Origin: Lachnospiraceae bacterium
GTDB lineage: Bacteria > Bacillota > Clostridia > Lachnospirales > Lachnospiraceae
Assembly: GCA_017437065.1 (NCBI GenBank)
Contig: JAFSBX010000098.1
Coordinates: forward strand, 1 to 60,819
Direction: 5' to 3'
DNA: 60,819 nt
A program made the translations under genes and the position numbers. Positions 36,620-46,147 of this stretch are shown in pieces. Position 1 is the first letter of the stretch. Each line of letters starts with the position of its first letter. A model generated the notes under the pieces. It was not told the origin of the DNA. It did no database searches and saw nothing but the letters and a program-made list of their open reading frames with translations.

Positions 36620-36702
36620 GAATTTAAAAAAGAAGATAGCAAAGAAAGTACATTCTTTGTATAATTATAATATAAGCAAGAATGGAAAAAGGAGGCGGAT
36701 AT

Positions 36703-37392
36703 ATGGGCTTGACGATAGAATATTTAAGAGAACTCAATTTGTTATCCATTTGTCTGAGAATTATTTTATCGCTTATTATAGGTGGGATTCTGGGCTTGGA
36801 GCGAGGTCGGAAAAATCGTCCTGCCGGTTTTCGAACGTATATCTTAGTATGCCTCGGTTCTACAATAGTCATGATGACAAATCAGTATGTCTATCAGGTG
36901 TTTGGAGCTTCCGACCCAACCAGAATGGGTGCGCAGGTAATAAGTGGTATCGGTTTTTTGGGTGCCGGAACCATTATGGTAACGGGCAGACAGCAGATTA
37001 AAGGAATTACGACGGCAGCAGGAATGTGGTCGGCGGCATGTTGCGGTCTTGCGATAGGTATCGGTTTTTATGAAGGTGCCATTGCGGGTGGGATTATTGT
37101 CTTTCTGATTATGGAATTTTTGGAAAAAATGGATGGAATTATTAGAAGACATTCCAATATTATGGACGTTTATTTGGAATTTGACGGGAAGAAAATGTTC
37201 AGCACATTTTTGTCCAGTGCCAGGGAGAATGGATTTGATGTGTCTAATATACAGATAAGCAAGAATAAACATGTTAAGACGGGAGAACTGAGCGTGGTGT
37301 TAACGCTGGAAAGCCAGACAAAACGGACGCAGGAGGAGATGCTTTCTGTTATTGGAAGTGTTGAAGGGGTTAGTTTTATTGAGAAGTTGTAA
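36703..37392 (+). CDS. MgtC/SapB family membrane protein
   Basis: The 229-residue protein has the MgtC/SapB N-terminal domain with four to five spans: LSLIIGGILGLERGRKNRPAGFRTY, LVCLGSTIVMMTNQYV, QVISGIGFLGAGTIMV and GMWSAACCGLAIGIGFY. A cytoplasmic ACT-like C-terminal domain (residues about 150-229) follows. The family is linked to magnesium homeostasis and stress adaptation. AAGGAGG at 36689-36695 fixes the ATG at 36703. It lies 84 nt after spmB and ends ahead of the speD promoter. Confidence 0.9.
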   Translation: MGLTIEYLRELNLLSICLRIILSLIIGGILGLERGRKNRPAGFRTYILVCLGSTIVMMTNQYVYQVFGASDPTRMGAQVISGIGFLGAGTIMVTGRQQIKGITTAAGMWSAACCGLAIGIGFYEGAIAGGIIVFLIMEFLEKMDGIIRRHSNIMDVYLEFDGKKMFSTFLSSARENGFDVSNIQISKNKHVKTGELSVVLTLESQTKRTQEEMLSVIGSVEGVSFIEKL

Positions 37393-37435: not shown

Positions 37436-37464
37436 TTGCAAATTACTTTAATACTTTATATAAT
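37436..37464 (+). promoter_or_regulatory. strong sigma-A promoter ahead of the speD leader
   Basis: TTGCAA (37436-37441) and a perfect TATAAT (37459-37464) are 17 nt apart. The predicted transcription start near 37471 gives a leader of about 400 nt before speD. Confidence 0.8.
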
Positions 37465-37470
37465 TAAAGC

Positions 37471-37773
37471 AATGTTGTTAGGTTTTAAGAGCCATAAAGC
37501 AGGGAATGATTTTAACCATTTTCGGCAACTTTCGTTGCCTTATTGATTGAGTGAAAACTCGTTTGATTTAAATTTGAAGTTTTTTAACGAAGCTGTATAT
37601 CACATTTAGTGAACAATCAATAAGAGTAGTAAAAGTAAGTTCTTGCTATATAGACTCTGGAGCCATATTTCTGAAATAGACGGAAGATAAAATAATGTAT
37701 TTTATCGTGATGTAGTGAAATATTGTATGATTAGAAACTTAAGTGGTACACAGATAAAGTGTATCACTTTTTT
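37471..37773 (+). ncRNA. candidate structured RNA: speD leader or independent small RNA
   Basis: After a strong promoter, about 300 nt without a reading frame contain several strong stems: GGCAAC-TTTC-GTTGCC (37524-37539), a long-range perfect 11-bp pairing CTTATTGATTG (37539-37549) with CAATCAATAAG (37614-37624) that encloses further short stems such as GAGTGAAAACTC (37549-37560), and a terminal hairpin at 37741-37773 with a T run. The layout is like a riboswitch/attenuator upstream of polyamine genes or an autonomous small RNA. It does not match T-box, SAM-I, purine, lysine or c-di-GMP motifs that I know. Family unknown; 6S RNA cannot be excluded. Confidence 0.5.
37741..37773 (+). terminator. 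terminator or attenuator hairpin in the speD leader
   Basis: AAGTGGTACAC (37741-37751) pairs with GTGTATCACTT (37759-37769), one G-U pair, loop AGATAAA, followed by six T (37768-37773). It lies about 100 nt upstream of speD. Confidence 0.85.
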
Positions 37774-37785
37774 CATGTGACAGGA

Positions 37786-37834
37786 TTCTGGTGTCAAAAG
37801 ATTCAGATTATAATAGTACCTTTTGACACCAGAA
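37786..37834 (+). promoter_or_regulatory. perfect 15-bp hairpin directly upstream of speD
   Basis: TTCTGGTGTCAAAAG (37786-37800) pairs perfectly with CTTTTGACACCAGAA (37820-37834), with a 19-nt AT-rich loop. The RBS GAGGT (37862-37866) and start codon lie 28-40 nt downstream. It has no T run, so translation control or RNA stability is more likely than termination. Confidence 0.6.
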
Positions 37835-37873
37835 GCGTGATAGTAAATTACTTTTATGAAATGAGGTAATGCC

Positions 37874-38668
37874 ATGAACAAATTAAAATTATATGGATTT
37901 AACAATTTGACAAAATCTTTGAGCTTTAATATTTATGATGTATGTTATGCAAAAACAGCAAGAGAACAAAAAGAGTACATTGCTTATATTGATGAGCAGT
38001 ACAATTCCGATCGTTTGACCAAAATATTATTTCACCTGACAGAAATGATTGGTGCCCATGTGCTTAATGTATCAAAACAGGATTATGAACCGCAGGGAGC
38101 TAGTGTTACTTTTTTGATTGCGGAAGGAAATATGTTGCCGTCAGGTTATGAAACATTGGCAGATGCATCTATAACCCTTCGTGACACCGTGGTAGGGCAT
38201 TTGGATAAGAGTCATGTAACTGTGCATACTTATCCTGAATATCACCCGGATACCTGCATTGCTACATTCCGCGTAGATATTGATGTGGCGACTTGTGGGG
38301 AAATTACGCCGCTTAGCACCTTGGATTATCTGATCGGAAGCTTTGATTCGGATATTATTACAATGGATTACAGAGTGCGTGGATTTACCCGTGATATGAG
38401 TGGTAAGAAGCTCTTTATGGATCATAAAATTACTTCCATTCAGGATTATATAGCACCGGAAATTATACAGAAATATGATGCAATTGATATTAATATGTAT
38501 CAGGCAAATTTATTTCACACAAAGATGTTGATTAAAGATATGGATTTGCAGAATTATCTTTTTAATACAGATATTTATGAAATTCCACCAAAAACAAGAC
38601 TTCAAATTAGTAATAATTTACGACAGGAAATGATTGAAATTTTCAGTGGAACAAATATCTATGAATAA
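37874..38668 (+). CDS. speD: adenosylmethionine decarboxylase proenzyme
   Basis: The 264-residue proenzyme is of the E. coli type (same length). It self-cleaves at the serine of HLDKSH (S113) to form the pyruvoyl group and decarboxylates S-adenosylmethionine to the aminopropyl donor for spermidine synthesis. Similar segments include LKLYGFNNLTKSLSFNIYD, DYEPQGASVT, VHTYPEYHP, DYRVRGFTRDMSG and FHTKMLIKDMDL. It begins the polyamine operon after a structured leader. GAGGT precedes the ATG. Confidence 0.97.
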   Translation: MNKLKLYGFNNLTKSLSFNIYDVCYAKTAREQKEYIAYIDEQYNSDRLTKILFHLTEMIGAHVLNVSKQDYEPQGASVTFLIAEGNMLPSGYETLADASITLRDTVVGHLDKSHVTVHTYPEYHPDTCIATFRVDIDVATCGEITPLSTLDYLIGSFDSDIITMDYRVRGFTRDMSGKKLFMDHKITSIQDYIAPEIIQKYDAIDINMYQANLFHTKMLIKDMDLQNYLFNTDIYEIPPKTRLQISNNLRQEMIEIFSGTNIYE

Positions 38669-38780
38669 ATGTAATTATTCAGAGCAATTCATGAGAAAAA
38701 AATAGGCATTGAAAATATGTTTTGCGAATTAAACTCATGGGATGAAAATAATATGGTAACGCGTAAGAGGGAGAGAGAAT

Positions 38781-40229
38781 ATGTCGGTTTTAAATCAGGA
38801 CAAAGCACCAATCATGGAGGCGCTTCAACAGTTAAAAACAATGCGAATTGTGCCTTTTGATGTACCGGGACATAAAAGAGGAAAAGGAAATAAAGAACTG
38901 ACGTATTTTTTGGGCGAAAAGTGCATGGAGCTGGATGTGAATTCCATGAAGCCGCTGGACAATCTTTGTCATCCGATTTCGGTGATTAAAGAAGCAGAGG
39001 AGCTGGCAGCGGATGCCTTTGGTGCGGCACATGCCTTTTTTATGGTAGGAGGGACTACCAGTGCGGTACAGGCAATGGTGTTAACGGCATGTAAGCGTGG
39101 GGACAAGATTATTCTGCCGAGAAATGTGCATAGAAGTGCCATTAATGCAATGATTTTGTGCGGTGCAGTGCCTGTATATGTTAATCCCGAAACGAATCAT
39201 GAGTTGGGGATTTCTCTTGGAATGCGTGTATCCGAGGTGGAAAAGGCAATCAGGGAAAATCCGGATGCAAAGGCTATTTTGGTAAATAATCCGACGTATT
39301 ATGGAATTTGTTCAAATATCAAGGCAATTGTGGAGTTGGCACATGCCCATGGAATGATGGTGCTTGCGGACGAAGCTCATGGTACACATTTTTACTTTAA
39401 TAAAAACCTGCCAATGTCAGCAATGGAGGCAGGAGCAGACATGGCATCGGTAAGTATGCATAAGTCAGGTGGTTCTCTTACACAAAGTTCCTTTCTGTTA
39501 ATGGGTCCGAATGTGAACGAAGGATATGTAAGACAGATAGTGAATCTGACACAGACAACAAGTGGTTCCTACCTGTTTTTATCCAGTCTTGATATTTCCA
39601 GAAGAAATCTGGCATTGAACGGAGAACAGGTCTTTGATAATATCATCAATCTGGTACAGTATGCAAGAGATGAAATTAATGAAATCGGTGACTACTATGC
39701 ATATTCTACAGAATTGAAAAATGGTGATTCTGTTTATGATTTTGATGTAACGAAATTGTCGGTACATACGAGAAATATAGGACTTGCCGGCATTGAAGTT
39801 TATGACATTTTAAGGGATGACTATGATATACAGACGGAGTTCGGAGATATCGGAAATCTGCTGGCTTATGTATCCGTAGGTGACAGACCGAGGGATATAG
39901 AGCGTTTGGTGAGTGCTCTTGCTGAAATTCGTCGCAGATACAAAAAGGATACAAGCGGAATGCTGGAGGCAGAGTATATTAATCCGATTGTGGCAGCAGC
40001 CCCACAGGACGCTTTCTATGGAGAGAAAGAGTCGTTACCTCTTGAAAAAACAAACGGAAGAGTTTGTGCGGAATTTGTCATGTGCTATCCCCCGGGAATT
40101 CCGATTCTGGCACCGGGCGAACTGATTACGGAAGAGATATTGGATTATATTCGCTATGCAAAAGAAAAAGGATGTTCCATGACAGGACCGGAGGATATGA
40201 ATATTGAGAGGATAAATGTGCTTAAGTGA
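38781..40229 (+). CDS. speA: Orn/Lys/Arg decarboxylase family, probably arginine decarboxylase
   Basis: The 482-residue PLP enzyme has FDVPGHKRGKG, FFMVGGTTSAVQAM, VLADEAHGTHF and the PLP lysine K228 in SMHKSGGSLTQ. With agmatinase two genes downstream, arginine to agmatine is the most likely reaction. The C-terminal domain has the VCAEFVMCYPPGIPILAPGE motif. GAGGGAGAG precedes the ATG. It is a paralogue of the protein at 7931-9382 (about equal length) but differs in the loop near the PLP lysine. The next start, at 40354, is 125 nt downstream. Confidence 0.88.
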   Translation: MSVLNQDKAPIMEALQQLKTMRIVPFDVPGHKRGKGNKELTYFLGEKCMELDVNSMKPLDNLCHPISVIKEAEELAADAFGAAHAFFMVGGTTSAVQAMVLTACKRGDKIILPRNVHRSAINAMILCGAVPVYVNPETNHELGISLGMRVSEVEKAIRENPDAKAILVNNPTYYGICSNIKAIVELAHAHGMMVLADEAHGTHFYFNKNLPMSAMEAGADMASVSMHKSGGSLTQSSFLLMGPNVNEGYVRQIVNLTQTTSGSYLFLSSLDISRRNLALNGEQVFDNIINLVQYARDEINEIGDYYAYSTELKNGDSVYDFDVTKLSVHTRNIGLAGIEVYDILRDDYDIQTEFGDIGNLLAYVSVGDRPRDIERLVSALAEIRRRYKKDTSGMLEAEYINPIVAAAPQDAFYGEKESLPLEKTNGRVCAEFVMCYPPGIPILAPGELITEEILDYIRYAKEKGCSMTGPEDMNIERINVLK

Positions 40230-40353
40230 GTCAAGTTCATATGGATTTGACGAATGTCTACATGAGTGTAGGAGAAGCCGTAGCGAATGGAGCTTTGCAC
40301 GAAGTGCTAAGGAGCATAGTAGCACAGTAGTAGAAAGAAAGGGGAACAAACAA

Positions 40354-41205
40354 ATGGAATTGTGGTTTTCAGAAAAGCATACGCAAAATGTTAAGTTTTC
40401 CATAAAAGTTGACAGGCAGCTTTATTCGGGAAACAGTGAGTTTCAGCGAATTGACATTTTTGAATCGAAAGAATTCGGCAGATTTCTGGCATTGGACGGC
40501 TATATGATGCTGACAGAAAAAGATGAATTTATTTACCACGAAATGATAGTACATGTGCCGATGGCGGTGCATCCGAATGTAAAAAAAGTGCTTGTAATTG
40601 GTGGCGGTGACGGTGGTGCAGTCAGAGAACTTTTAAGATATCCGACCGTGGAATGGATTGATTTGGTTGAGATAGATGAGCTGGTAGTGGAAGTTTGTAA
40701 AAAGTATATGCCACAGACCGCGGGACAGTTAAGTGATGGAAAAGTGCATATTCATTATGAGGATGGACTTGCTTATGTTCGTCATATGGAAAATGAATAT
40801 GACTTGATTATTGTAGATTCTACAGATCCTTTCGGACCGGGGGAAGGCTTGTTTACGAAAGAATTTTATGGGAATTGCTTCAAGGCACTGAAGGAAGACG
40901 GCATTATGGTAAATCAGCATGAAAGTCCGTTTTATCAGGAAGACAGACAGGCAATGCAAAGAGCGCATAAGAGAATTGTAGAGTCTTTCCCAATCAGTAA
41001 GGTTTATCAGGCACATATTCCAACATATCCGTCGGGGCACTGGTTGTTTGGCTTTGCTTCTAAAAAATACCATCCCATTAAAGATGCAAACTTTGTGAAA
41101 TGGAATGTGCTTGGATTAAAAACAAAGTACTACAATACGGAACTTCATGCAGGAGCATTTGCCCTGCCGAATTATGTGGAGGAGATGTTAGAAGATGTGG
41201 AATAA
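40354..41205 (+). CDS. speE: polyamine aminopropyltransferase (spermidine synthase)
   Basis: The 283-residue enzyme transfers the aminopropyl group from decarboxylated SAM to putrescine. It has MELWFSEKHTQNVKFSIKV, QRIDIFESKEFGRFLALDGYMMLTEKDEFIYHEMI, VLVIGGGDGGAVRELLRY and the catalytic Asp region DLIIVDSTDPFGPGEGLF. The ATG at 40354 fits the family start and follows AAAGGGGAAC; an in-frame extension to 40216 shows no family similarity. It overlaps speB by 11 nt. Confidence 0.96.
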   Translation: MELWFSEKHTQNVKFSIKVDRQLYSGNSEFQRIDIFESKEFGRFLALDGYMMLTEKDEFIYHEMIVHVPMAVHPNVKKVLVIGGGDGGAVRELLRYPTVEWIDLVEIDELVVEVCKKYMPQTAGQLSDGKVHIHYEDGLAYVRHMENEYDLIIVDSTDPFGPGEGLFTKEFYGNCFKALKEDGIMVNQHESPFYQEDRQAMQRAHKRIVESFPISKVYQAHIPTYPSGHWLFGFASKKYHPIKDANFVKWNVLGLKTKYYNTELHAGAFALPNYVEEMLEDVE

Positions 41206-42058
41206 AAATATAGAAACTTTTTTAGGCTGCGACGCAGATTATGAGGAAGCAAGAATTGTATTGTTTGGCGCACCTTTTGATTCAACAACATCATATCGAC
41301 CGGGAACAAGGTTTGCCAGCAAAACCATGAGAGCGGAATCTTACGGTTTGGAAACTTACAGTCCGTATCAGGATTTGGACTTGGAGGACTGCAAGATTTT
41401 TGACGGTGGGGACTTGGAGCTTTGTTTTGGAGATACTTCTCTCGCATTACAGGATATAACAGAGTGTACAAGAGAGATTTTGAAAGACGGAAAAATGCCA
41501 CTGATGATTGGTGGAGAGCATTTGGTGACACTTGGGGCAGTTCGTGCCGTTTTTGAAAAATACCCGGATTTGCATGTGATTCATTTTGATGCTCATGCAG
41601 ATTTAAGAGAGGAATATTTGGGAGCAACCCTTTCCCATGCAACGGTTTTGCACAGAGTATGGGATTTGGTAGGTGACGGAAAGATTTTTCAGTTCGGCAT
41701 ACGAAGCGGAGAACGTGCAGAGTTTGCATGGGGAAAAGAACATGTAACTACAAGAAAATTTGACTTTGAAGGATTGGAAGAGGTCATTGAAAAGTTAAAA
41801 GGAAAACCGGTGTATTTTACACTGGATTTGGATGTGCTTGATCCGTCCGTATTTCCGGGAACAGGAACACCGGAGGCCGGAGGAGTCAGCTTTTTGCAGC
41901 TTTTAGATGCGGTGATGAAGGTTGGAGAGCTGGATTTGGTTGGTTGTGATATCAATGAACTTTCACCGCCACTTGATGCCAGTGGAGCATCTACGGCAGT
42001 GGCATTGAAGGTGTTGAGAGAGTTGTTACTGAAACTGGAAGAGAAGCATATCAAGTAG
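41195..42058 (+). CDS. speB: agmatinase
   Basis: The 287-residue binuclear manganese ureohydrolase converts agmatine to putrescine and urea. It has the metal-binding motifs GGEHLVTLG, FDAHADLREEY and DLDVLDPSVFPGTGTPEAGG. It overlaps speE by 11 nt after GGAGGAG. With the arginine decarboxylase it completes the agmatine pathway to putrescine. Confidence 0.94.
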   Translation: MWNKNIETFLGCDADYEEARIVLFGAPFDSTTSYRPGTRFASKTMRAESYGLETYSPYQDLDLEDCKIFDGGDLELCFGDTSLALQDITECTREILKDGKMPLMIGGEHLVTLGAVRAVFEKYPDLHVIHFDAHADLREEYLGATLSHATVLHRVWDLVGDGKIFQFGIRSGERAEFAWGKEHVTTRKFDFEGLEEVIEKLKGKPVYFTLDLDVLDPSVFPGTGTPEAGGVSFLQLLDAVMKVGELDLVGCDINELSPPLDASGASTAVALKVLRELLLKLEEKHIK

Positions 42059-42196
42059 AGAGTACAAATGATCGTAGTCATAAAGATAAAATCATAACGA
42101 AAAAAGATGTATGAAATATCTGATAAGAGATTTGTGGCAGAAATAAGACAGGAAAATATGCAGAAGCATATCTGTAAAATAAAGGAGAATGAAAAA

Positions 42197-43453
42197 ATGG
42201 GAAGAGCGTTGATTATCGGATGTGGCGGTGTTGCAAGTGTGGCAATTCACAAATGTTGCCAGAACAGTGAAGTATTTGAGGAAATTATGATTGCAAGCCG
42301 TACAAAATCAAAATGTGATGCACTGGCAGAGAAGCTTTCCGGTGGAAAGACAAAAATTCAGACCGCTCAGGTAGATGCGGATAACAAGGATGAAGTTGTA
42401 GCATTAATTAAGCAGTTTCAACCGGATTTGGTAATGAATATTGCATTGCCTTATCAGGATTTGACTATTATGGATGCCTGCCTTGAATGTGGTGTCAATT
42501 ATATGGATACAGCAAATTATGAACCGGAAGATATTGAAGATCCGGAATGGCGTGCCATTTATGATAAGAGGTGTAAGGAAGAAGGATTTTCGGCGTATTT
42601 TGATTATTCATGGCAGTGGGCATATAAGAAAAAATTTGAAGAAGCAGGACTTACTGCACTGTTAGGTTCCGGTTTTGATCCGGGTGTAACACAGGCGTTT
42701 TGTGCCTATGCTTTGAAGCATGAGTTTGATGAAATTGATACGATTGATATTTTGGATTGCAATGGCGGGGATCATGGGTATCCTTTTGCAACGAACTTCA
42801 ATCCTGAAATTAATCTTCGTGAGGTTTCCGCACCGGGAAGTTATTGGGAAAACGGACATTGGGTCGAAATTCCTGCTATGAGCATTAAACGTGAGTATGA
42901 TTTTGAAGAAGTTGGAAAAAAAGATATGTATCTTCTTCACCATGAGGAGATAGAATCTCTGGCTAAAAATATTCCGGGTGTAAAAAGAATCCGTTTCTTT
43001 ATGACCTTCGGACAGAGCTATCTTGACCACATGAGATGTTTGGAAAACGTAGGAATGCTTTCTACAACACCGATTAATTACGAAGGAAAAGAAATTGTGC
43101 CGATTCAGTTTTTAAAAGCACTTTTACCGGATCCGGCAAGTCTTGGACCGCGTACAAAAGGTAAGACAAATATCGGTTGTATTTTTACAGGCAAGAAAGA
43201 CGGCAAAGAAAAAACTTATTATGTTTATAATGTTTGTGACCATCAGGAATGCTATAAAGAGGTTGGTTCACAGGCGATTTCTTATACAACGGGTGTACCG
43301 GCTATGATTGGAGCAATGATGCTGCTAACCGGAACATGGAATAAGCCGGGAGTTTATACGGTAGAAGAGTTTGATCCCGACCCATATATGGAAGCGTTGA
43401 ATAAATGGGGATTGCCGTGGAAAGAAAGCTTTGAACCGGTGTTAGTGGAGTAG
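42197..43453 (+). CDS. carboxynorspermidine/carboxyspermidine dehydrogenase (saccharopine dehydrogenase family)
   Basis: The 418-residue NADPH-dependent enzyme condenses a diamine with aspartate-beta-semialdehyde to carboxy(nor)spermidine. It has a Rossmann start MGRALIIGCGGVASVAIHKC, MNIALPYQDLTIMDACLECGVNYMDTANYE, GFDPGVTQAFCAYAL and DILDCNGGDHG. The partner decarboxylase lies at 45014. The ATG at 42197 follows AAAGGAGA at 42181; an in-frame start at 42107 adds 30 residues without family similarity. Family members are also called LYS1-like; the context fixes the polyamine role. Confidence 0.9.
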   Translation: MGRALIIGCGGVASVAIHKCCQNSEVFEEIMIASRTKSKCDALAEKLSGGKTKIQTAQVDADNKDEVVALIKQFQPDLVMNIALPYQDLTIMDACLECGVNYMDTANYEPEDIEDPEWRAIYDKRCKEEGFSAYFDYSWQWAYKKKFEEAGLTALLGSGFDPGVTQAFCAYALKHEFDEIDTIDILDCNGGDHGYPFATNFNPEINLREVSAPGSYWENGHWVEIPAMSIKREYDFEEVGKKDMYLLHHEEIESLAKNIPGVKRIRFFMTFGQSYLDHMRCLENVGMLSTTPINYEGKEIVPIQFLKALLPDPASLGPRTKGKTNIGCIFTGKKDGKEKTYYVYNVCDHQECYKEVGSQAISYTTGVPAMIGAMMLLTGTWNKPGVYTVEEFDPDPYMEALNKWGLPWKESFEPVLVE

Positions 43454-43485
43454 GTGGAATGAATTGAAGGTTTAGGTTAGAAAGG

Positions 43486-43527
43486 TTTCATTGGCAGGAA
43501 GCTATTTATAGATTCCTGCCAATGAAA
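43486..43527. terminator. bidirectional terminator between CASDH and the Rpn gene
   Basis: TTTCATTGGCAGGAA (43486-43500) pairs perfectly with TTCCTGCCAATGAAA (43513-43527), 12-nt loop. Confidence 0.8.
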
Positions 43528-43544
43528 GTTAAGAAATGTTGTGT

Positions 43545-44717
43545 TTAATGAGTGGTTTTCCAGTATTTTTCGAGGTAGGTTTTTGCAATATCATGATTAA
43601 GTCCGTAGGATTGTATAAGTTGGTTTAAAGTATCATTTGGGGAAATATTAAGATTTTGGCAACTTCTGATAAAAGAAATAATACCTTCTTCAAGGCCTTT
43701 AGCCATACCTTGTTGTATACCTTGTTGTATACCTTGTTGCATACCCTGTTGTATACCTTGTTGCATGCCCTGTTGTATGCCTTGTTGCATACCCTGTTGT
43801 ATGCCTTGTTGCATACCCTGTTGTATGCCTTGTTGCATACCCTGTTGTATGCCTTGTTGCATACCCTGTTTGATACCTTGTTCGATGCCCTGTTCATGAC
43901 CTTCTTCAAAACCTTTTTCTAACCCAATTTTATGACCTTCTTTAAATCCCTGAGCCAGACCTTCCTCACGATGCATTTTTTCAAGTTCCCATGATTTCAT
44001 ATAATTTATTCCAACCTCCTTTCGGGATTTTATTTTTTCAACAATATGGTGGAGTGTATCAATGTTTTGATTAGTTATATTGTCCGTAGTTGTATGTTCA
44101 ATATATCTTAGCATATCGCGAAGTTCCTGACTAGGATTTCCTTCGGTGCCTTTGGTGTATAAAAAAATCTTTTTTGCACCATCGTTATATGGAACGGCGG
44201 AATCTTCTACACATTGATTTTGTATGGTGTAAACCATACGGTTTTTTCCAAATGGATCATAGGGAAGTATAATAATAATTGCTACGTTGGGGAGTTTATC
44301 GTAGTCGATGTTCGTTGCGAGGAGTTGAGTATCAATTAGACCATGGTAGTAACGCATACGTTTGGGAAGTGTCTTTTTTTCATAGGTATTATTAGGTTCT
44401 ACATCATAGATGTCAGAAATAACTTCTGCTTCTAATGTTTCTGTTCCGATACCCATAGTTTCTTCCGAGATGTCTTCAATATATGCGTCCATACGAATAC
44501 CATGGTGGTTGGTGTCTATGCCGAGTACATTTTTCTGAGGAATGATTCTTACTTTACTTATAGGTTTTCCTAAAATTGTACTAAGTAGAATGCGGCAAAA
44601 TTCCTCACCATCTTCTTTTTGCATGAGAAGCTGTTGAAAAAGAAAATCATCAATCAGATTAAGTTCTTCAAGTGGTCGTTGTGTATAAGTTGTGGAATTT
44701 GTTTGAGTGTTTTTCAT
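43545..44717 (-). CDS. Rpn-family recombination-promoting nuclease/transposase-like protein with QG repeats
   Basis: The 390-residue protein has an N-terminal PD-(D/E)XK nuclease domain (FQQLLMQKEDGEEFCRILLSTILG, GIRMDAYIED with a candidate metal-binding Asp, DVEPNN, RMRYYHGLIDTQLL and NVAIIIILPYDPFG). A C-terminal coil has about sixteen QGxx units (such as QGMQQGIQ). Rpn proteins promote recombination and may act in defence or mobility; biological role uncertain. It lies inverted between CASDH and nspC and splits the polyamine cluster. A minus-strand AAGGAGA precedes the ATG. Confidence 0.85.
   Translation of the reverse strand: MKNTQTNSTTYTQRPLEELNLIDDFLFQQLLMQKEDGEEFCRILLSTILGKPISKVRIIPQKNVLGIDTNHHGIRMDAYIEDISEETMGIGTETLEAEVISDIYDVEPNNTYEKKTLPKRMRYYHGLIDTQLLATNIDYDKLPNVAIIIILPYDPFGKNRMVYTIQNQCVEDSAVPYNDGAKKIFLYTKGTEGNPSQELRDMLRYIEHTTTDNITNQNIDTLHHIVEKIKSRKEVGINYMKSWELEKMHREEGLAQGFKEGHKIGLEKGFEEGHEQGIEQGIKQGMQQGIQQGMQQGIQQGMQQGIQQGMQQGIQQGMQQGIQQGMQQGIQQGIQQGMAKGLEEGIISFIRSCQNLNISPNDTLNQLIQSYGLNHDIAKTYLEKYWKTTH
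43705..43872 (-). repeat. intragenic 12-bp tandem repeats (24-bp alternating) in the Rpn gene
   Basis: About 14 units of a 12-bp sequence of the type CATACCCTGTTG/TATACCTTGTTG encode alternating QGMQ/QGIQ. The units are near-identical, so copy number should vary easily by slippage or recombination. In-frame repeat changes keep the protein readable. Confidence 0.85.
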
Positions 44718-45013
44718 AAAAATCTCCTTTGAATTGTAATAATAGAATTGATACTAATGGCGAAATGCCGGATGTGAATAATTCACAAGAATAGTAAATC
44801 AATAGATAAAATAACAGGACAAGAATATCCTGAAAATGTGAATATAGTATAACTGATTTTTAACGAGTCTGCAATAAGTGTATTCATATTTTTCAAATTT
44901 TTATGTATATGAAGTGTTATAAGAAAATGAAAGGAAACAATTTGCAGATACATAGTTTAGTATTTGTAACCCAATTAAATAGAGCAATTTAAATTGGGGA
45001 ATGGTAATATATT
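44718..45013. other. intergenic region upstream of nspC
   Basis: AT-rich; it holds the start region of the inverted Rpn gene and the leader of nspC. TATAAC at 44848-44853 may be a -10 box with no clear -35. A short CAGGA/TCCTG hairpin is near 44816-44832. No reading frame or RNA motif was recognised. Confidence 0.4.
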
Positions 45014-46147
45014 ATGAAAATAAAAAAAGAATGGATGCAACTTCCCACCCCGTGCTATGTGGTGGAAGAAGAGCTTTTAATTAAAAATCTTGAAATATTA
45101 AAAAGTGTAGAAGAGGAAGCAGGTTGTCATATTCTCTTAGCACAGAAGGCTTTTTCAATGTATCATTTTTATCCTCTTATCGGTAGCTATATTTCCGGTG
45201 CGACGGCGAGCGGATTATATGAGGCAAAATTAGGTGCTGAAGAAATGGGAAAAGAAAACCATGTATTTTCTCCGGCATACAAGGAAGAGGATTTCGATGA
45301 AATTCTCGCTCTTTGTGACCATATTATTTTTAATTCTTTTGCACAGTGGAAGAAGTTTAAAGAAAAAGCACTGGCAGCGGGAAGAGAATGCGGAATTCGT
45401 ATCAATCCTGAATGTTCTACACAGGATCATGGTATTTACGATCCGTGTAGTAAAGGGTCCAGATTGGGAGTAACACTGGCGAATTTTCAGCCGGAGCAAC
45501 TTGATGGAATCGCCGGATTGCATTTTCACACACTTTGTGAACAGGGTGTGGATGCATTGGAAATTACATTGAATGCTGTGGAAGAAAAGTTCGGTAAATG
45601 GCTTCCGATGATGAAGTGGATAAACTTTGGCGGTGGACATCATATTACAAAACCGGACTATGATGTGGATAAGTTGATAAAAATTATAAAAGAGTTTAAA
45701 GCGAAATATCAGGTGGAAGTTTATCTGGAGCCGGGAGAGGCAGTGGCTTTGGATACCGGATTTTTAGTGGCAGAGGTATTGGAACTGATTGAAAATGACG
45801 GGCAGATAGCAATTTTGGATACTTCTGCGGCGTGCCATATGCCGGATGTACTGGAAATGCCTTACAGACCTTTTGTAATCGGAAGCGGAGAAGCCGGGGA
45901 GAAGAAATATACTTATACTTTTGGCGGACCGACCTGTCTTGCAGGAGATATGATTGGGACATATTCTTTTGATGAACCGCTGAAAATCGGGGATAAAGTG
46001 GTATTCTGTGACATGTCGATTTATTCTATGGTAAAAAATAATACATTTAACGGAATGCCGTTGCCTGCGATTGCTGCTGTGGATAGGGATAGAAATGTCA
46101 GTATCGTGAGAGAGTTTGGCTATGAAGATTTTAAGGGAAGGCTTTAA
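45014..46147 (+). CDS. nspC: carboxynorspermidine decarboxylase
   Basis: The 377-residue PLP enzyme of the alanine-racemase-like fold removes the carboxyl of carboxy(nor)spermidine, giving (nor)spermidine. It begins LPTPCYVVEEELLIKNLEIL, has the PLP lysine K45 in LLAQKAFSMY, the histidine-rich GLHFHTLCE, MKWINFGGGHHITKPDYD and the C-terminal MPYRPFVIGSGEAGEKKYTYTFGGPTCLAGD. It completes the alternative polyamine route with the CASDH gene at 42197, from which it is separated by the inverted Rpn gene. GGGGA lies upstream. Confidence 0.95.
   Translation: MKIKKEWMQLPTPCYVVEEELLIKNLEILKSVEEEAGCHILLAQKAFSMYHFYPLIGSYISGATASGLYEAKLGAEEMGKENHVFSPAYKEEDFDEILALCDHIIFNSFAQWKKFKEKALAAGRECGIRINPECSTQDHGIYDPCSKGSRLGVTLANFQPEQLDGIAGLHFHTLCEQGVDALEITLNAVEEKFGKWLPMMKWINFGGGHHITKPDYDVDKLIKIIKEFKAKYQVEVYLEPGEAVALDTGFLVAEVLELIENDGQIAILDTSAACHMPDVLEMPYRPFVIGSGEAGEKKYTYTFGGPTCLAGDMIGTYSFDEPLKIGDKVVFCDMSIYSMVKNNTFNGMPLPAIAAVDRDRNVSIVREFGYEDFKGRL

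Follow-up and report, generated by a model that had tools for sequence, protein, structure and literature searches.

The window, the whole 60,819-nt stretch of Lachnospiraceae DNA analyzed here, belongs to a source genome of 3.9 Mb in 156 contigs and carries a cluster of polyamine genes on its plus strand. The first gene after the leader is speD, encoding S-adenosylmethionine (SAM) decarboxylase (37874–38668; TIGR03331, 412.8 bits, cut-off 255.8). It is followed by an Orn/Lys/Arg-type decarboxylase gene (38781–40229), named by resemblance, with best matches to lysine, arginine, and ornithine decarboxylase models that all lie far below the cut-offs; by speE, encoding spermidine synthase (40354–41205; TIGR00417, 337.6 bits, cut-off 249.55); and by speB, encoding agmatinase (41195–42058; TIGR01230, 262.8 bits, cut-off 174.3). 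The first-pass annotation held that the genes after the leader use SAM and make polyamines. Further downstream are a carboxynorspermidine synthase-like dehydrogenase gene (42194–43453; NF043000, 414.7 bits, below the cut-off of 800) and nspC, encoding carboxynorspermidine decarboxylase (45014–46147; TIGR01047, 517.9 bits, cut-off 409.05). The stretch 37874–46147 appears to encode both spermidine routes, SpeD/SpeE and carboxy(nor)spermidine synthase/decarboxylase. Between the carboxynorspermidine synthase-like gene and nspC, a minus-strand gene (43545–44717) contains a repetitive QGIQQGM tract, for which Pfam gives only a weak Yae1_N match. A gene for an MgtC-family membrane protein (36682–37392) sits directly 5′ of the leader on the same strand.

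The leader begins with a sigma-70-type promoter, TTGCAA-17-TATAAT (37436–37464, plus strand), which matches the consensus at 10 of 12 positions and is the best of eight promoter-like sites in a 5-kb scan; the match alone is not significant, with eight sites against a mean of 16.6 in shuffled sequence. Judged from the promoter spacing, transcription is expected to start at about 37471, approximately 403 nt 5′ of the speD ATG at 37874, in agreement with the earlier claim of a near-consensus promoter about 400 nt before speD. A possible 5′ hairpin (37478–37497), seen by eye, has the loop AAGAG (37487–37491), which could pair with a 3′ tail CTCT. The RNA-closing helix P1, paired in the minimum free energy (MFE) fold of the window leader, is formed by AGCAGGGA (37498–37505) and TTCTTGCT (37640–37647). 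Within it lies the P4 hairpin, GGCAAC-TTTC-GTTGCC (37524–37539). P5 joins 37539–37549, which has the core TTATTGA in relatives, to 37614–37624, and the first base of the P6 hairpin, GAGT-GAAA-ACTC (37549–37560), overlaps the end of this 11-bp helix. The most conserved strand, TCAATAAGAGTAGTAAAAGTAAGTTCTTGCTATATAGACTCTG (37617–37659), is mostly invariant in an alignment of 29 relatives. A leader peptide in the window was judged unlikely by eye, as the conserved strand contains four stop codons in one frame. Downstream, the hairpin 37741–37769 followed by TTTT makes up an intrinsic terminator (37741–37773); scanning for terminators gave no excess (4 sites compared with 2.8 in shuffles). The ribosome-binding site of speD is at 37863–37866. 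The tetraloop hairpin P4, the perfect 11-bp pairing that we call P5, and the terminator had all been picked out in the first-pass annotation and are present as it described them.

The same annotation had also drawn a perfect 15-bp hairpin near the start codon into the leader architecture. The inverted repeat exists, between the terminator and the ribosome-binding site (37786–37800 with 37820–37834, 19-nt loop), but it does not belong to the conserved RNA. It is absent from the leader of a sister species (locus L005), occurs once in the genome by exact pattern, and does not overlap the ribosome-binding site; therefore, we left it out of the RNA as defined here and rejected it as an element of the switch. 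A stretch of about 70 bp related to the repeat region, with 77% identity, is found at G000:C14:14581–14649.

A covariance model (R1) was built from 29 aligned relatives with the window left out. R1 models five helices, P4–P8, and has the P4 register slightly misplaced from the first alignment. In a search of the source genome, it scored the window leader at 92.9 bits (E 7.0e-19). R1 matched 48 of 391 class genomes, spread over 26 family labels, and 25 of 398 phylum genomes; both counts include the source genome, the two samples overlap, and the strict filters lose weak matches. One match per genome was found in the class and phylum searches, with the exception of genome G500, which has two. 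By blastn, the leader (37460–37780) was detected in 35 of 200 same-family genomes, again including its own, and an exact 22-base piece of 37617–37659 was found in 18 genome-contig stretches, including Acetobacterium species and several Clostridia. It is this conservation, by R1 and blastn, and not the promoter or terminator scan counts, that sets the leader beyond chance. R1 found two of the three genomes of the window's own genus; the same-genus genome G583 gave neither an R1 copy nor a SpeD match. A Paenibacillus plasmid record (Bacilli) carries the RNA with 83.5% identity to the copy at L017, here preceding carboxynorspermidine synthase and nspC genes. The phage records searched gave no match to the RNA. 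Locus L023 has two tandem copies 390 bp apart (1383–1553 and 1773–1943, 91.9 bits each), which may be a true tandem or an assembly effect.

The helices common to the relatives are the closing helix P1, an optional P2/P3 domain, and P4, P5, P6, P7, P8, and P9. The first-pass annotation had proposed a covariation analysis of homologs, and the helices covary in both of the alignments made. In a MAFFT alignment of 29 copies, two-sided changes were seen at 9 of 29 pairs and in 22 cells, against 3.7 and 7.2 in shuffled controls; none of 500 shuffles scored as high, and P4–P8 were paired in 87.4% of cells compared with 85.5% in shuffles. In a model-aligned set of 70 distinct rows, which was fitted to the structure and hence leans towards it, 92.5% of cells were paired, and two-sided changes were found at 15 of 29 pairs and in 107 cells (6.5 and 29.1 when shuffled; 0/500 as high). 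Sliding the partners by 1–3 columns in these 70 rows left only 29–50% pairing.

Individual helices contribute to this signal in different ways. Each of the five modelled P4 pairs had two-sided changes, and 71.1% of P4 cells were paired, as the register varies among the 70 rows; three of the five P6 pairs had two-sided changes in relatives, with 97.0% of cells paired. P5 was paired in 99.2% of cells (70 distinct rows), and six of its seven pairs never vary; being invariant, it is neutral and lends no covariation support. Eight rows were dropped before counting in the tests of P1, P2, and the 3′ tail. For P1, the 3′ strand matches the 5′ region of its own locus better than 5′ regions swapped in from other loci (one-sided p = 1.7e-7 over 68 loci, uncorrected for relatedness), although only 14 of the 68 loci rank in the top 10% against swaps. 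The P2 partner that scored best paired at 5 or more of 6 positions in 51 of the 53 copies that have the P2/P3 domain; this count is weak because the best partner within a search interval was taken without a shuffled control and some partners were mis-assigned. Fifteen of 68 copies were scored as P2-less, in some cases simply because P2 had diverged too far for the pattern to catch it. Of the 95 copies, 83 were parsable, and 79 of these have a predicted P9 hairpin. A pseudoknot between the 5′ loop and the 3′ tail looked attractive by eye but was unsupported when own partners were compared with swapped ones (p = 0.35). Another candidate pseudoknot, between CGGACA and TGCCG, was likewise noted by eye.

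The window copy is a reduced one. The window and its same-genus sister, L005, lack the P2/P3 domain, as do other copies, and both are shorter and rearranged across P7–P9; in the window, P7 and P8 cannot be recognized, and the MFE fold of its leader keeps P1, P4, P5, and P6. The essential parts are probably P1, P4, P5, and the strand 37617–37659. Because P2/P3 is missing and the P7–P9 region is rearranged, the window copy may be weaker or altered. By eye, the weak copies L109–L111 look reduced further, with the TTATTGA strand of P5 seemingly lost and the invariant 3′ strand kept; L109 and L110 may use an ACC/GGT pairing instead.

According to the first-pass annotation, the leader fits no recognizable riboswitch class. 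This holds for the window, where Rfam gave no match at gathering thresholds and the leader gave only noise up to E 10, but not for the longer relatives, which contain RF02440 (SpF59_sRNA, "Streptococcus sRNA SpF59 (ldcC RNA)"; Rfam type sRNA gene). RF02440 (threshold 37.2 bits) matched neither the window at gathering nor the leader up to E 10, consistent with the absence of the domain from this copy. Its 54 positions cover P2/P3, as present in the longer relatives, together with the UGCCGA that comes next, whereas the conserved core and the terminator switch fall outside the model. It was matched in 11 of 16 relatives scanned, and in the five misses P2 was also not found by pattern. In a phylum sample, RF02440 matched 8 of 249 genomes, and at each of the eight loci the R1 core follows immediately on the 3′ side; Lactococcus lactis matched it among 14 named controls. 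The RNA is probably a riboswitch class so far catalogued only as a fragment. The Rfam alias "ldcC RNA" shows that a portion of this RNA has already drawn notice, and that portion may have been described in other literature. A description of the whole RNA was not found in open-access full text, nor by word searches in the motif surveys PMC8632094 and PMC11109978, a 2010 survey, which gave one unrelated passage, and the riboswitch review PMC10043782.

Gene neighborhoods were counted over 95 distinct fetched copies, obtained from 105 instances by removing repeats of the same locus. Ninety-one of them precede polyamine genes on the same strand: the nearest probed downstream gene is speD in 50, an Orn/Lys/Arg decarboxylase gene in 29, carboxynorspermidine synthase in 8, and potA in 4. 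Three of the remaining copies are at contig ends, and one (L025 of genome G117, also recorded as L124, G117:C7) precedes an M28 peptidase gene, with no recognized polyamine gene. At L023, an acetyltransferase gene lies between the tandem RNAs and speD, and at L080 a decarboxylase gene is directly 3′ of the RNA. All 21 loci examined, down to the weakest R1 match in the phylum (E 3.1e-5), adjoin polyamine genes. One potA gene, shared by the records L071 and L127, scores above the cut-off of a spermidine/putrescine transporter model; the other three potA genes were named by similarity to it and by their ABC_tran and TOBE_2 domains. In L127, potA is followed by potB-, potC-, and potD-like genes that score below the cut-offs of their models. 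Polyamine is the common denominator of all the genes beside the RNA.

A terminator lies between the RNA and the gene in 74 of 76 copies, as counted by a finder run without a shuffled control. Antiterminator pairing was assessed by matching the terminator 5′ arm against successive RNA positions at 67 loci, after dropping seven near-duplicates and two copies without a terminator. The energy of the arm-RNA duplex shows a single dip, where the RNA holds the 3′ strands of P9 and P7; the mean there is -10.0 kcal/mol, and shuffled arms give -4.0 kcal/mol. When the entire target was considered, the best duplexes averaged -11.6 kcal/mol, against -6.8 for shuffled and -9.3 for swapped arms. At 41 of the 67 loci the arm outperformed 95% of shuffled versions of itself, but at only 14 did it outperform 95% of arms taken from other loci; the complementarity therefore reflects, for the most part, a conserved match common to the loci and not coevolution within each of them. 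The same dip was found at 13 of 14 further loci, the remaining one having no terminator (-10.5 kcal/mol; -4.6 shuffled, -5.7 with reversed arms). This set is partly dependent: L103 has the arm and target of L086, L097 and L098 have the arm of L087, and some of its loci are closely related to members of the 67. In the window, the segment occupying the place of the P9 and P7 3′ strands of longer relatives is 37593–37607, which is complementary to the terminator 5′ arm with its preceding 5 nt (37736–37753). This duplex has a calculated energy of -11.5 kcal/mol, equaled by 25 of 2,000 shuffles; the arm used here was chosen after a shorter one had given no significance for the window by itself (11% of shuffles did as well). 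The equivalent duplex in the sister species (L005) reaches -14.5 kcal/mol, with 5 of 2,000 shuffles as good. On complementarity and calculated energies, the RNA has a predicted expression platform in competition with the fold of the sensor.

Taken as a whole, the comparative evidence makes it likely that the leader acts in cis to attenuate transcription of the polyamine operon, most probably as a riboswitch. A riboswitch or attenuator had been suggested from the architecture in the first-pass annotation, and that reading is now supported by the covarying helices, the polyamine contexts of 91 of 95 copies, the terminator, and the matching antiterminator. The sensor would be the RNA fold that P1 closes, comprising P4, P5, P6, and the almost invariant 3′ strand. 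When polyamine is low, 37593–37607 would pair with 37736–37753, the terminator would be blocked, and the polymerase would read into speD; when polyamine is ample, the sensor would keep its own fold, leaving the arm free, so that the terminator (37741–37773) could form and transcription would stop before speD. We infer the OFF direction, which fits because a stabilized sensor would free the terminator arm. The switch probably answers to a polyamine, with spermidine the first candidate, and we infer that the ligand is bound directly.

The attenuator could instead be mediated by a protein: the leader would be the same, with a polyamine-responsive RNA-binding protein reading the conserved strand. 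That the most conserved part of the RNA is a block of sequence (37617–37659) and that some helices are dispensable would suit a protein site, but the fold is large, multi-helical, and covarying, as expected of an aptamer, and we regard protein mediation as unlikely. Further from the evidence is an independent, trans-acting small RNA that merely happens to be located before speD. Rfam lists the related domain as an sRNA gene, and early termination would give a short RNA anyway. SP0916 presumably begins a polyamine operon in pneumococcus. F59, a pneumococcal RNA of 82 nt, is placed between SP0915 and SP0916 in the consulted part of PMC3395615. Such an RNA would not be expected before four kinds of polyamine gene, on the same strand, in 91 of 95 copies, or with a terminator arm complementary to the RNA itself, and we give this explanation very little weight.

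A sensor of SAM, decarboxylated SAM, or MTA, that is, a SAM-type riboswitch, ranks marginally lower again. The first gene of the window is a SAM decarboxylase gene, and the published spermidine riboswitch, the one bacterial class for this ligand found in the literature searched, is a SAM-I variant (PMC10853860). The nine genomes examined in which carboxynorspermidine synthase follows the RNA all encode SpeD elsewhere; therefore, these loci alone do not exclude a SAM-derived ligand. However, no SAM family matched the window at gathering, the leader up to E 10, or any of 16 relatives at gathering, and a SAM-type identity was rejected on this basis. The potA copies also speak against SAM or decarboxylated SAM as the ligand: a SpeD match is absent from the four potA genomes, as it is from G117, at completeness values of 62, 61, 89, and 83% for the former and 97% for the latter. 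Among the other families considered, a T-box match of only 11.3 bits (gathering threshold 93) was taken as chance. 6S RNA (RF00013), independently transcribed, had been named in the first-pass annotation as the main alternative; it resembles the leader in length and in having its own promoter, and in these respects alone. The genome's own 6S RNA lies on another contig (G000:C3:40044–40226; 69 bits, above cut-off), and the window has no 6S match, which excludes 6S from that role and leaves it with a negligible probability. A riboswitch that senses a polyamine is the reading we retain.

Polyamines bind RNA in general. Use of RNA as a dedicated polyamine sensor has been disputed, and one polyamine riboswitch class was reported in 2023 as rare SAM-I variants (PMC10853860). 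On balance, we favor the view that the RNA described here is a second widespread natural polyamine riboswitch class, structurally unrelated to the first, that shuts off synthesis by two pathways as well as import in Clostridia, a Paenibacillus, and other Bacillota, with the window as a stripped-down version showing the essential core. If this is true, a large, widespread, and independent RNA would offer a direct test of RNA polyamine sensing and a new aptamer for structure work, to which the window would contribute a reduced natural variant. It would also explain the control of spermidine production in gut anaerobes and put right Rfam's listing of a single leader domain as an independent sRNA.

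Other structured leaders are known before polyamine genes. The speF and odc1 leaders precede ornithine decarboxylase genes and are described as alphaproteobacterial, with odc1 (uORF-25-1) forming a hairpin with a pseudoknot, in the parts of PMC11477304 and PMC8632094 consulted; the leader RNA resembles them in its place before polyamine genes, in a comparison made through Rfam and published descriptions only. A further parallel is the SAM-I-variant spermidine riboswitch (PMC10853860), which is an OFF switch for spermidine acting via an intrinsic terminator and antiterminator and controls ldcC, speD, speE, and speB genes. The two RNAs share a polyamine gene context and a terminator/antiterminator arrangement, which in the leader RNA would fit an OFF switch, whereas the published riboswitch has an aptamer of the SAM-I type and the leader RNA, with no SAM match, folds differently.
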